Source: Halorubrum sp. DM2 (lineage in GTDB: Archaea > Halobacteriota > Halobacteria > Halobacteriales > Haloferacaceae). Taken from it: a DNA stretch of 64,000 nt. Shown here piece after piece: positions 12,862-59,748 of this stretch. Within the stretch, counting starts at the first letter, position 1. Each line of letters opens with the position of its first letter. Where the stretch lies: positions 2,679,773 to 2,743,772 of the forward strand of contig NZ_LR594487.1 in NCBI RefSeq assembly GCF_901686465.1. The letters are read 5' to 3'. The position numbers and the translations under genes are program-made. The notes below the pieces were generated by a model that did no database searches, was not told where the DNA came from, and saw only the letters and a list, made by a program, of their open reading frames with translations.

Positions 12862-13920
12862 TCAGAGGGTGTAGTCGTCTTCGCCCGTCTCGGACTCCAA
12901 GAACGCCGTCAGAAGGTTGATCGTCGCCTCCACGTCGCCGCCGTCGGCGGTTTCGGTGACAGTGTGGAGGTACCGCGTCGGGATCGAGATCGCGCCGACG
13001 GGCTTCGCCCCCGCCGTGTTCTGGAACCCGGCCGTGTCGGTGCCGCCCGCGGGCAGCACCTCGTGTTGGTGGTCGATGTCCTCCGCTTCAGCCACGTCGG
13101 TGAGGCGACCGTGGACCTTCGGGCTGGTGATCACCGAGGAGTCCTTCAGCTTGACGGCCGCGCCCTCGCCGAGTTCGGTGACGGCGTCGGCCTCGTCGCC
13201 GATCTGGGGCACGTCGTTGGCGACGGTGACGTCTAAGGCGATCGCGAGGTCGGGGTCGATGTCGACGCCGAGCGCGGTCGCCCCCCGAATGCCGACCTCC
13301 TCCTGAACCGTCGCCGCGAAGTGGATCGTGGCGTCGGGCTCCTCGATTCGGTCGGCCGCTTCGAGCATCGCGAACAGGCAGATCCGGTCGTCGAGCGCCT
13401 TGCCCGTGATCCGGTCTCCCATCCGCGTCGTGGTCTGATCGAGGGTGACGAGGTCGCCGACGCTCACGAGGTCGTCGACCGCCTCGGCGTCGCGCCCGAG
13501 GTCGATGAAGACGTCTTTCACCTCGTCGTCCGTCTCCTGCTGTTCCTCCGTGAGCGTGTGCGGCGGGACGGAGCCGATGACGCCGGTCAGGTCCTCGTCG
13601 CCGTGGACGGTAACGCGCTGCGCGCGCAGCACGCGGGCGTCGAAGCCGCCGAGGGGGTCCACCTGAACGAACCCGTCGTCGGTGACGTGCCGGACCATGA
13701 ACCCGATCTCGTCCATGTGGGCCGCCACGGCGACCGAGTAGTCCGCGTCGCCCTCGATCGTCCCGACGACGTTGCCCATCGCGTCGGTTCGGACGCGGTC
13801 GACCCTGTCGGCGAACTCGCGCCGGACGACCTCGCGGACGTCGTCCTCGTAGCCCGGGACGCCGCGGGCCTCGGTCAGCTCTCGGAGCAGGTCGAACTCG
13901 AAGTCGAACTCGTGTGCCAT
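12862..13920 (-). CDS. M42 family metallo-aminopeptidase (TET-like)
   Basis: 352 residues. Metal ligands of the co-catalytic dinuclear site are visible in AAHMDEIGFM (His about 69), the catalytic EE pair in TVQEEVGIRGA, and the ligand Asp in ALDVTVAND. GGTDTAGFQ and the late IPTRYLHT (last His ligand) complete the site. M42 enzymes of archaea form large tetrahedral (TET) particles that trim peptides released by the proteasome. The chosen ATG (MAHEFDFEFDLL) follows a region without coding character. The length is normal for the family. Confidence 0.9.
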   Translation of the reverse strand: MAHEFDFEFDLLRELTEARGVPGYEDDVREVVRREFADRVDRVRTDAMGNVVGTIEGDADYSVAVAAHMDEIGFMVRHVTDDGFVQVDPLGGFDARVLRAQRVTVHGDEDLTGVIGSVPPHTLTEEQQETDDEVKDVFIDLGRDAEAVDDLVSVGDLVTLDQTTTRMGDRITGKALDDRICLFAMLEAADRIEEPDATIHFAATVQEEVGIRGATALGVDIDPDLAIALDVTVANDVPQIGDEADAVTELGEGAAVKLKDSSVITSPKVHGRLTDVAEAEDIDHQHEVLPAGGTDTAGFQNTAGAKPVGAISIPTRYLHTVTETADGGDVEATINLLTAFLESETGEDDYTL

Positions 13921-14089
13921 GTCCGTGACTGTCCGCGCCAGCGACAAAGGTCCGCAGGATCCGGCACGGCCGTCTGGCTTTAGTGAAAGCCGAATCATCG
14001 ACGCCGGCGAGGCCCCGTCATTCGGATCTACGGTGATACTCCGATATTTAAATACGGTAAGCGGCCACGAAATATACTTATAAACATCA

Positions 14090-14347
14090 GCGGTGGCGCG
14101 TGCCTGCGAGCGGTCGCCCTCGGCGACCGCGAGTCAGCACGCGCGAGGGAGTCGACCGGTCGGAGCGAAGCGGAGGCCGGTCGACGAGGCTGGGGAGGCA
14201 TGAGGCTGCGGTCGCGGTGTTGTGCGGGGCGGGACTCGAAGGGGCAGTCGCGAGGCGGATGGAGGCGACGCAAGCACCGCAGGAACGAGCAGCGCGAGTG
14301 ACGAGGAGCACAGCGAGCGTCCATCCGCCTCGCGACTGGGGCTTCGG
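14090..14347 (-). repeat. Structured dispersed repeat, copy A (candidate ncRNA)
   Basis: Reads CCGAAGCCCC at 14347 down to the conserved GGCACGCGCCACC end near 14090 on the minus strand. Stem P1 pairs 14247-14262 with 14321-14336, 16 perfect base pairs. P2 pairs 14151-14159 with 14177-14185. P3 pairs 14110-14118 with 14122-14130. The loop/linker sequences (CCCCTTCGAGTCCC, CCTCCCCAGCCTC, TCGCAGGCACGCGCC) are nearly identical to the other copies, while the stems differ yet stay paired. The TTATAA at 14371-14376 is centred 26 bp before the first C of CCGAAG. Short open frames crossing it are artefacts. Confidence 0.8.
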
Positions 14348-14370
14348 TGGTGTCCGTATTGATCTGCGAT

Positions 14371-14376
14371 TTATAA
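14371..14376. promoter_or_regulatory. Palindromic TTATAA box serving repeat copy A
   Basis: TTATAA is its own complement, so it can act in both directions. Its centre is 26 bp from the first base of copy A. If the 119 bp insertion at 14382-14500 is removed, it would also lie 27-28 bp from the first base of copy B on the other strand. Confidence 0.55.
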
Positions 14377-14381
14377 CCAGA

Positions 14382-14500
14382 AACGGCTCTGTTGAAATCC
14401 TATTCTTTAGGTATATTTCCGTCTGAAACAGCCAGTTGATGAGAGCTGCTTATAGGACGGGTGTTTCATGAGCCCTATCGGTGATGAAAACAGAGCCGTT
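14382..14500. mobile_element. MITE-like insertion with 12 bp perfect terminal inverted repeats
   Basis: Ends AACGGCTCTGTT (14382-14393) and its exact complement (14489-14500). No room for a transposase. The left 45 bp match the right end of the element at 25173-25769 (both read GCTCTGTTGAA, a TATTC/TATCC stretch, GGTATATT/GATATATT and CTGAAAC). The ends resemble IS6-family termini (from memory). It sits between repeat copies A and B. No clear target duplication is visible. Confidence 0.6.
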
Positions 14501-14519
14501 GCTAGCGCGGTGAACACCT

Positions 14520-14776
14520 CCGAAGCCCCAGCCGCGAGGACTCCCGCGGCTCGTTGCGCTCCTCGTCGCTCACTGCGTTCGCTCCTGCGGTGCTTACGTC
14601 GCCGAGGAGCGTCCTCGCGGCTGGCCCTTCGAGTCCCACCCGACCGCACCGTACCACCTCACACCTCCCCAGCCTCGTCAGCGGCTCCCGCTGGTCGCCG
14701 CTGACTCCCTCGCGCGGTGCTCCTCACGGTCGCCTTCGGCGACCGCTCGGAGGCACGCGCCACCGCACCGCAGATC
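14520..14776 (+). repeat. Structured dispersed repeat, copy B (candidate ncRNA)
   Basis: Plus-strand copy in inverted orientation to copy A. CCGAAGCCCC begins at 14520. P1 pairs 14531-14541 with 14611-14621 (11 bp), P2 pairs 14677-14684 with 14698-14705, and P3 pairs 14728-14734 with 14738-14744. It ends at CACCGCACCGCAGAT near 14776. There is no TATA box at -26 because the MITE-like insertion lies immediately upstream, so this copy may be silent. Confidence 0.8.
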
Positions 14777-14847
14777 GGTCGTTCCTCTCCCTGTATTGGC
14801 CGCTGGGGGCACAGAACCCATCTCCTTTGACAGAGCCTCAGAAACGG

Positions 14848-14914
14848 CCACGTACGGCCGAGCAACTGGGGATTCGGCGGTGGCCAGCGTGGACCCGCTC
14901 TTTGTCCCTTATAA
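14848..14914 (-). repeat. Half-element related to the 5' end of the structured repeat
   Basis: On the minus strand, TTATAA at 14909-14914 is followed about 35 bp later by CCGAATCCCC and a short CAGTTGCTCGGC-type stretch ending near 14850 in a GTACGTGG-like sequence. The stretch at 51383-51438 has the same layout. The rest of the repeat is missing. The remaining DNA up to 15050 shows only promoter-like T-rich stretches for the next gene. Confidence 0.45.
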
Positions 14915-26284: not shown

Positions 26285-26352
26285 CGTCGGCAGCGACTCC
26301 CTCGCGCGGCGCTGTTCGCGCCTCTAAGTAGGCGCTCGCAGGCGCACGCCAT
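26285..26352 (+). repeat. Remnant of the structured dispersed repeat (3' part)
   Basis: CAGCGACTCCCTCGCGCGGCG, then a short hairpin (TTCGCGCC ... GGCGCTCGCAGGC), then GCACGCCA corresponds to the last third of the repeat family, with decay (GCGCACGCC for GGCACGCGCC). P1 and P2 are absent. Confidence 0.5.
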
Positions 26353-26421
26353 CCCGGCTGGTTGTCTGCTTCGTTACGCCCGAGTGAGAAGCGATTAGTC
26401 GCCGCCGCCGCAAGATTCGGT

Positions 26422-39415: not shown

Positions 39416-39611
39416 ACGCTCTCTTCAGCGACCGAACACATAGGCCTACTGGCGAACCTGCGGCTCTCACTGAGTGGACGTTTTAGGTGAGCTAGTTTGG
39501 ATGGCAGGATCCCAACGGAGCCGACTTATACTAGATCTGAAACGGAGCTATCGCCGCACGAACCGAAACCATCGAGGCCCCGGTCGCCCGGCGATACGAC
39601 CGCGTTTTTCT

Positions 39612-39619
39612 TTATAAAT
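39612..39619 (+). promoter_or_regulatory. TATA box of repeat copy C
   Basis: TTATAAAT centred 26 bp before the first base (39641) of copy C. Confidence 0.6.
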
Positions 39620-39640
39620 AGCCGATCGACGCGAACACCG

Positions 39641-39955
39641 CCGAAGCCCCAGCCGCGAGGACTCGCGCGACTCGCTGCGCGCTTCGGTCGCTCACTTCGT
39701 TCGCTCCCTCCAGTGCTTGCTTCGCCGTGCTTCGCCCTCGCGGCTGCCCCTTCGAGCCCTACCCGCCCCGCACCGCACAGCACCTCACGCCTCCTCAGCC
39801 TCGTCGGTGGCGGTCTTCGCTTCGCTCCGACCGCCAGCGACTCCAGCGAGGGACCGAAGGTCCCTCTGGCAGCCGGCGCGTAGCGCCGGCGACCTCGCGC
39901 GTGCTGTCTCGCGCCCTCCGGGCGCTCGCAGGCACGCGCCACCCCACCGCAGATC
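39641..39955 (+). repeat. Structured dispersed repeat, copy C (candidate ncRNA)
   Basis: Starts CCGAAGCCCC at 39641. P1 pairs 39652-39660 with 39736-39744. P2 pairs 39803-39815 with 39829-39841 (12 of 13). Two extra hairpins pair 39848-39855 with 39859-39866 and 39872-39879 with 39883-39890. P3 pairs 39911-39916 with 39920-39925. The extra hairpins occur in copy F with different bases that still pair (GAGGGACC/GGTCCCTC here, GAGAATC/GATTCTC there). Confidence 0.85.
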
Positions 39956-40254: not shown

Positions 40255-40311
40255 CCGAACGTGGTTCACAACTGCGATCATATATGTCTGCTGTACTAAA
40301 CGTTCGGGGTT

Positions 40312-40556
40312 CGTCTCGTTCGCTCTCTCCAGTGCTTCCTGTAGGGCGCTCGCCCTCGAAACTACCTATTCGTCCCGCCCGCACAGCACTACAACCGCAC
40401 CTCACGCCTACCCAACCCCGCCGCTCGCGGCGTCCCTCGCCGGTGCTGTCGCCGGCGCGAAGCGCCGGCTTTCAGGGGCATTTCGGCCCCTCTCGACTCT
40501 CGGGCACGAGGCGGCCTCGCAGGCACGCGCCACCGCACCGCAGATTGCCCCTCATG
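40312..40556 (+). repeat. Structured dispersed repeat, copy D (5'-truncated)
   Basis: Lacks the CCGAAGCCCC start and half of P1; matching begins in the P1 loop (TCGTTCGCTCTCTCCAGTGCTT). The GCCGGCGC/GCGCCGGC hairpin is intact at 40451-40458 and 40462-40469. A further AGGGGC/GCCCCT hairpin follows, and the end TCGCAGGCACGCGCCACC is conserved. No TATA box is in place, so it is probably a dead copy. Confidence 0.7.
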
Positions 40557-51001: not shown

Positions 51002-51067
51002 GCAACCCAGCGTAGGCGAAACCAACTCAAGAACCTGACGAACCACCAGCCGCGACGTGATTTATAA

Positions 51068-51339
51068 ATGCGGTGGCGCGTGCCTGCGAGCGGTCGCCAC
51101 CGGCGACCGCGAGACAGCACCGCGCGAGGGAGTCGGCCGCGACGAGGGCGACCGGAGGGAGCCCGACGGACGCGGCCGACGAGGCTGGGGAGGCGTGAGG
51201 CTGTGCGGTGCTGTGCGGGGTGGGACTCGAAGGGGCAGTCGCGAGGACGAAGGCGCGCGACGCAAGCACCGCAGGAACGAGCGAAGCGAGTGACAAGGAG
51301 CACAGCGAGCGCACCGAGTCCTCGCGGCTGGGGCTTCGG
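51068..51339 (-). repeat. Structured dispersed repeat, copy E (candidate ncRNA)
   Basis: Minus-strand copy, CCGAAGCCCC starting at 51339. P1 pairs 51240-51248 with 51318-51326. P2 pairs 51132-51141 with 51171-51180, 10 perfect base pairs with a sequence unlike the other copies. P3 pairs 51090-51098 with 51102-51110. The TATA box expected at -26 is not convincing (a weak CTATTTTC at -32). A TTTATAAAT lies just past its 3' end. Confidence 0.8.
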
Positions 51340-51382
51340 CGGTCTCGGTCACGGAATCAGTCACACCGAAAATAGTCACGTA

Positions 51383-59316: not shown

Positions 59317-59370
59317 TTATAACTCGCTGAGCGATGCGAACCGCTCCGAAGCCCCACCCGCTCGCTACGA
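59317..59370 (+). repeat. Half-element of the structured repeat with TATA box
   Basis: TTATAA (59317-59322) is centred 26 bp before CCGAAGCCCCACCCGCTCG starting at 59346. This is the same start motif as the full copies, which then ends without P1. A full copy begins at 59397, 51 bp on, without its own TATA box at -26. Confidence 0.55.
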
Positions 59371-59396
59371 CGAAACCGACGCTGTGACTAAGACCA

Positions 59397-59695
59397 CCGA
59401 AGCCCCAGCCGCGAGGACAGCGCACGCTCGCTGCGCGCCTCACTCGGTCGCTTCGCTCCCTCGTTGCGGTGCTTGCGTCGCCTGTGCTGTCCTCGCGGCT
59501 GCCCCTTCGAGTCCCGCACCGCACCTCACGCCTCCCCAGCCTCGTCGCTGTCGGCCGTCGCTTCGCTCGGCCGCCATCGACTCCAGCGAGAATCGGAGAT
59601 TCTCTGGCAGCCGGCGGCTTCGCCGCCGGCGACCTCGCGCGACGCTCCTCGGCCGCGGTGCGGCCTCGGAGGCGCGCGCCACCGCGTCGCACAGT
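59397..59695 (+). repeat. Structured dispersed repeat, copy F (candidate ncRNA)
   Basis: CCGAAGCCCC at 59397. P1 pairs 59408-59421 with 59486-59499 (14 perfect base pairs). P2 pairs 59544-59557 with 59568-59581 (12 of 14). Extra hairpins pair 59588-59594 with 59598-59604 and 59610-59618 with 59622-59630. P3 pairs 59651-59656 with 59660-59665. The stem sequences differ from copy C but remain complementary. Confidence 0.85.
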
Positions 59696-59748
59696 AAATG
59701 GAGCCGCAGCCCGTTTCTTTTAACCGCTCCCCGCACGCGGGTTCCGAT

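Follow-up and report, generated by a model that had tools for sequence, protein, structure and literature searches.

Among described kinds, the repeat family reported here stands nearest to the SMRs, PATEs and MITEs found in Haloquadratum and to the bacterial ERIC and REP sequences. SMR-A of Haloquadratum walsbyi is a transposase-free repeat of about 110 bp that occurs in tens of copies; its inverted ends are unrelated to known transposons, it is without target duplication, and SMR copies of one type are commonly over 95% identical (Dyall-Smith et al. 2011, PMC3119063). The ERIC sequences of Enterobacteriaceae and Vibrionaceae are intergenic, palindromic and non-autonomous, with 30 to 711 copies depending on the species (PMC10969869).

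The repeat analysed here was found in a stretch of 64,000 nucleotides from Halorubrum sp. DM2, hereafter the window. Like SMR-A it is transposase-free and haloarchaeal, and its domain III of ~120 bp can be set beside the about 110 bp of SMR-A, the two being compared by description only; it differs from SMR-A in having three domains and a length of ~250 bp, in being without terminal inverted repeats and in the average identity of its copies, which is 85%. It shares with ERIC an intergenic, palindromic, multicopy and non-autonomous nature, but it is archaeal and longer, consists of several separate hairpins and has a class-wide core that covaries helix by helix. The IS605-related PATEs of Haloquadratum are similar in being without terminal inverted repeats and in having near-terminal palindromes, and their terminal-only remnants of ~52 bp recall the units of 51-69 nt found beside copies of the repeat. 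An IS605/PATE origin was rejected, as neither domain III nor the complete repeat matched any of the nine TnpB loci in this genome. A likeness to MITEs is seen in other genera, where inverted pairs of domain III have matching ends, but no consistent target-site duplication was found beside such pairs and no parent transposon was seen between nearby copies in the sequences examined.

No match to the repeat was found in Rfam, which recognised only two tRNAs in the window and nothing up to E = 1 for positions 13900-14900. A literature search of open-licence papers found no description of it either, and an initial annotation of this DNA likewise knew of no described haloarchaeal RNA of such design.

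Copies of the repeat in the window

The initial annotation had listed seven copies, five of them near-complete, one truncated and one reduced to a remnant. All seven were found independently by a profile from genome-wide copies, and the five near-complete ones were also matched by a covariance model (Table 1). The stems and linkers that had been quoted are present, and the stems vary between copies yet remain paired. Two extra hairpins with exchanged stems, described for copies C and F, are likewise seen in the sequence, namely GCCGGCGC-TAC-GCGCCGGC and GAGGGACC-TTC-GGTCCCTC in copy C and GCCGGCGGC-GAA-GCCGCCGGC and GAGAATC-TCC-GATTCTC in copy F. The left end of copy E is immediately preceded by TTTATAAAT.

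A short MITE-like element of ~120 bp, with inverted ends ACGGCTCTGTTGAAATCC...AACAGAGCCGT, lies between copies A and B (14383-14499). Ends like these also flank or abut further copies (genome 394767; L018), and the repeat is therefore sometimes carried inside or beside such a MITE.

Table 1. Positions of the repeat copies and their parts in the window
Feature	Position	Strand	Details
Copy A, complete (domains I-II-III)	14090-14352	+	Profile match 14071-14378
Copy A, domain I	14097-14146	+	Stem P1 GCGCGTGC/GCACGCGC bearing hairpin P3 GCGGTCGCC/GGCGACCGC; helices 1 and 2
Copy A, domain II hairpin	14150-14195	+	GTCGACCGGTC ... GCCGGTCGAC, flanked by invariant GAGGGA and GAGGCTGGGGAGG; helix 3
Copy A, domain III (class-wide core)	14233-14349	+	Covariance-model match; order GACTCGAAGGGGC - stem - GACGCAAGCACCGCA - G.A hairpin - GAGGAGCACAGCGAG - stem - GGGGCTTCGGTG
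Copy B, complete	14515-14776	-	Profile match 14483-14781; domain III 14518-14635 (covariance model)
Domain I remnant	26285-26357	-	Profile match 26292-26357
Copy C, two extra hairpins between domains I and II	39634-39955	-	Profile match 39608-39955; domain III 39639-39758
Copy C, right flank	about 39570-39638		One 69-nt unit past the right end
Copy D, truncated	40309-40556	-	3' part of domain III degraded; profile match 40309-40546
Copy E, complete	51068-51344	+	Profile match 51060-51376; domain III 51224-51341
Copy F, two extra hairpins between domains I and II	59392-59695	-	Profile match 59366-59700; domain III 59395-59513
Copy F, right flank	about 59345-59391		One 51-nt unit past the right end

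Architecture of the element

The repeat measures 250-320 bp in the window and 239-278 nt across 51 copies, and its boundaries are sharp, with GCGGTGGCGCG at the left and ...GGCTGGGGCTTCGG at the right. The lengths of these 51 copies are without codon periodicity, so no reading frame is conserved inside the element, as had been noted earlier. In domain I a stem GCGCGYGC/GCRC(C)GCGC bears a variable hairpin. Domain II forms a hairpin flanked by the invariant GAGGGA and GAGGCTGGGGAGG, and domain III, ~120 nt long, makes up the 3' part of the element from GACTCGAAGGGGC to GGGGCTTCG.

The closing helix of domain III shows compensated switches between groups of copies, with CGAA/TTCG in 61 copies, GAAA/TTTC in 23, CAAA/TTTG in thirteen, GGAA/TTCC in six and GCAA/TTGC in two. 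Inside this helix lies an internal loop with G-tracts on both strands, followed by a long stem whose first nine pairs are ~98% Watson-Crick. The two S positions of the conserved internal part GACGYAAGSACCRCA/GAGGASCRCAGCGAG covary, with 43 CG, 12 GC and none broken. The cap follows the pattern GA-NN-GA-NN-loop-NN-GA-NN-GA in 84 of 106 copies, with invariant G and A and a loop that is GNA in most cases. Its NN positions covary as well, being 95.8% paired compared with a mean of 72.9% and a maximum of 78.2% in 2,000 shuffles. On grounds of nucleic-acid chemistry the G.A positions of the cap would be tandem sheared G.A pairs, and the cap hairpin could then be formed on one strand only. Very stable DNA mini-hairpins are known for GNA loops closed by C-G, but triloops occur in RNA as well. 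Upstream of domain III, GGGN1-2GGG was found in 100 of 106 copies against 20-29% when shuffled, and one may speculate that it forms a G-quadruplex with the two GGGG tracts.

An optional mobile hairpin module, GTGGTTCGAGAGA...TCTCGTCATCAC...GAACGAC, was seen inserted within domain III in different genera (L012, L067, and the G015 and G006 copies orthologous to genome 407210). Many copies are followed on their right by arrays of one to four units of 51, 54, 57, 63, 66 or 69 nt joined by GTACAGCCGAGCGGCTGGGGCTTCGG, for example at L025:1606-1800 (minus strand), at L028:1609-1831 and beside copy F in the window (about 59345-59391); some units contain TTTATAA, and other genera again show spacings of 54 and 75 nt. 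Unit length is divisible by three in 59 of 67 cases, and the array is in frame with the stop codon of the neighbouring gene in 21 of 33. A reading of these arrays as coding repeats was rejected since the codon positions are equally variable, some units have in-frame stops and the stop of the neighbour is ancestral.

Covariation and strand

In an alignment of 55 sequences, half from Halorubrum and half from other genera, the 32-pair structure of domain III has 95.4% of its cells paired, compared with 72.5 ± 0.7 in shuffles and 31-43% when the partners are slid, and twenty-four of its pairs show double changes. The 24 pairs of domains I and II (31 sequences) are 94.9% paired against 85.0 ± 0.7. 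None of 500 shuffles reached the observed percentage paired or the covariation score and slid structures overall pair at 18-51%, these controls ignoring relatedness and the structure being derived from the same sequences as were tested. Maintenance of pairing is nevertheless hardly in doubt, given the slid controls and the very high counts of double changes.

Compensatory change in several helices, on which the initial annotation had based its candidate structured RNA, was upheld, but the RNA nature of the candidate was not, given the scarcity of G.U, the strand-symmetric folding scores, the want of a consistent promoter and the unbiased orientation relative to genes. Compensatory change alone does not prove RNA. 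G.U occurs 16 times (1.2%) and A.C nine times among ~1,300 carefully phased pairs, compared with 25 of 407 G.U pairs (6.1%) in a tRNA control from the same sequences, which makes G.U about five times rarer in the repeat. When the uncertain pair 4/137 and pair 42/98 are set aside, G.U and A.C are equal (19 and 19), and in domains I and II they number 9 and 10. Pair 42/98 itself is RNA-like as it tolerates U.G without C.A (CG 31, UG 16, UA 7, CA 0). RNA folding z-scores against shuffles are similar on both strands (-5.6 and -6.1), and the DNA fold is favourable too (z -4.3). The lower folding energy of the forward strand, observed in 51 of 51 copies, was dropped as proof of strand because the same bias is present in shuffles.

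No consistent promoter was found among 62 copies, ~70% of which are without a TATA box near the left end; the box is present there in 18 copies, and in 17 of these it lies 7-15 nt before the left end. The idea that it is used only where the left gene points away was rejected, the box being independent of the orientation of that gene. Boxes of the form TTTATAA or CTTATAA before the left boundary, as at window 51060-51068 and genome 392332, could represent either a promoter or an insertion preference. The label of RNA is accordingly not accepted here for the repeat, although it may have a functional role as RNA or as ssDNA.

Copy number and distribution

The core 14-mer GGACTCGAAGGGGC, allowing up to one mismatch, was found 141 times in the Halorubrum sp. 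DM2 genome (3,454,955 bp, single contig) and once for the reversed control, which excludes chance. The covariance model found at least 131 copies of domain III in this genome. The profile found 56 places of the repeat in 864 kb, and from this density ~200 places including fragments are expected in the genome. Exact copies of the 14-mer are unevenly oriented between 1.37 and 2.94 Mb (28 forward, 6 reverse); the genome total with up to one mismatch is balanced, 72 to 69.

The element is present in 52 of 52 Halorubrum genomes, and weak matches to it occur in 21 of the family's 28 genera; relatives within the genus include H. californiense, H. tebenquichense and H. sodomense. A covariance-model search of haloarchaea, as had been suggested for checking the family, found domain III in 201 of 242 genomes and in 64 of 74 genera. 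The initial annotation was right about the copies in its one window, but the true reach is wider, with more than 130 copies in the genome and a class-wide core. Copy number ranges widely among genera, from 1 to over 130, and in the eleven genomes examined to depth the counts run from 24 to 136, which are lower bounds since scoring was limited to 150 candidates per genome.

In genera other than Halorubrum the core often takes the form of an inverted pair with arms 33-367 nt apart and matching outer ends such as AACACCACCTCGAAAGCCCC, as in Halobacterium sp. CBA1126, Halopiger goleimassiliensis and Haloglomus halophilum. Among fifteen of these pairs, the two outer ends tend to be alike within a pair and to differ from one pair to the next. 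Carriage by viruses was not seen, with no match among 50,697 phage records and an exact pattern absent from 2.9 million viral contigs, and a plasmid search gave three weak matches only.

Position relative to genes

The copies sit among ordinary housekeeping genes. With genes predicted by a simple codon-usage caller, which cover 81-85% of the 864 kb, all 56 places lie between genes, with an overlap that never exceeds 60 nt. Co-directional gaps show no orientation preference (fourteen elements sense, seventeen antisense). Convergent gaps are somewhat enriched, with 17 of the 56 places against 18.5% of gene pairs, and eight places are in divergent gaps. In 26 of the 31 cases with a co-oriented left gene, no more than 40 nt separate the stop codon of that gene from the start of the element. 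If the left gene points away, the element is at least 50 nt clear of the start of the gene, a clearance consistent with avoidance of promoters.

Orthologous sites and exchange among copies

The copy located after pelota has a common site and orientation in all ten aligned species, two of them with internal deletions, and other sites are empty or decayed in some related species. Empty, filled and decayed sites show that copies are gained and lost over evolutionary time; remnants and partial deletions were also seen. Seven of nine copies of this genome are shared with G015, the closest genome compared. Copies at shared sites have a mean domain III identity of 0.79 with their G015 counterparts, the same as non-orthologous pairs (0.79; n = 6 loci), compared with ~90% for the flanking genes. 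Across eight species the nearest match of a copy is usually a paralogue. Whole hairpins have been exchanged, and one hairpin is inverted between orthologous copies. Gene conversion among copies would be the simplest reading of this loss of orthologue-specific similarity. The best genomic match to copy A is only 86% identical, which together with the average between copies indicates that there are no recently amplified copies.

In six genomes (G040, G050, G008, G009, G023 and G041) the alignment of an rtcB query is broken at base 1201-1206 into two parts that lie ~1.4 kb apart; the break is probably due to an intein, which is absent from this genome.

Discussion

We favour, at a rough probability of 0.58, the joint reading that these are transposase-free mobile structured repeats of haloarchaea, ERIC/SMR/MITE-like and kept uniform by gene conversion, and that they are the counterpart of bacterial ERIC/REP sequences and of the small mobile repeats of Haloquadratum. 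This is suggested by the absence of a coding frame, the at least 131 copies in this genome, the exclusively intergenic position, and presence and absence at orthologous sites alongside copies retained genus-wide. The truncated and decayed copies, the inverted pairs with matching ends elsewhere, the compensatory conservation of the fold and the loss of orthologue-specific similarity point the same way. One strand would fold while single-stranded, either as ssDNA in replication or transfer or as a transcript, and the fold may be the signal by which a putative enzyme copies or moves the repeat. Copies that settled downstream of genes would then be homogenised by gene conversion in the polyploid cells, a process that could swap whole hairpins and keep the palindromes near-perfect. 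Several results count against mobility. No linked transposase was found in this genome, whose nine TnpB loci have right ends unlike the repeat, and no autonomous element was seen between nearby copies in the sequences examined. A consistent target-site duplication is absent beside the fifteen inverted pairs (at empty sites the species have diverged too far for one to be visible), recently amplified copies are missing and single Halorubrum elements have no terminal inverted repeats.

The fold could instead belong to a class-wide noncoding RNA: every copy would be transcribed forwards, and the product, folded into three domains with a G.A-rich hairpin, would act in trans or bind a protein. Compensation in almost all helices, the acceptance of U.G and not C.A at pair 42/98, a tandem G.A hairpin formable on one strand only and the regular distance of the TATA box where one is nearby all speak for such an RNA, but G.U is scarce beside the tRNAs and equals A.C outside pairs 4/137 and 42/98, the two strands have like z-scores and most copies are without the box, whose presence does not depend on the orientation of the left gene; we regard such an RNA as unlikely. 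Another reading is a cis-acting mRNA element in which the hairpins would stabilise or end transcripts at gene 3' ends, like REP elements. The intergenic position, the short distance to the stop codon of a co-oriented left gene and the enrichment in convergent gaps agree with it, but near-equal numbers of sense and antisense copies, the places in divergent gaps and the many sites that are empty in related species make it very improbable.

Near-perfect Watson-Crick stems with few wobbles, as well as the whole-hairpin swaps and the inverted hairpin at orthologous sites, which resemble the products of template switching at quasi-palindromes, would suit a chromosomal DNA element (a site for the nucleoid, repair or replication) in which correction at the DNA level maintains the palindromes and no folded RNA or ssDNA is involved. 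Such correction would, however, erase the G.A mismatches of the cap; these are kept in 84 of 106 copies although the intervening pairs covary, and simple correction of palindromes therefore falls short of a full explanation. Since the copy number also differs so widely between genera, we consider a DNA element of this type quite improbable.

In the preferred reading of a mobile structured repeat, the conserved G.A-interrupted hairpin and the twenty-four covarying pairs exceed what is usual for mobile repeats, and there could be a cellular role. A tentative and somewhat doubtful proposal is that domain III is a class-wide folded nucleic acid, either RNA or programmed ssDNA, maintained in concert at up to more than 100 loci of a genome, with a specific putative protein as its binding partner. 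Its architecture would be new, with G-tracts GGGYGGG...AAGGGG...GGGG around the covarying stem and a tandem G.A/Watson-Crick cap with a GNA loop.

A repeat whose core is found in 64 of 74 sampled haloarchaeal genera seems to have escaped both Rfam and the open-licence literature. It offers a natural experiment in which up to a hundred or more copies per genome swap whole hairpins yet keep their fold, and it lets structural selection, gene conversion in polyploid archaea and palindrome repair at the DNA level be distinguished.
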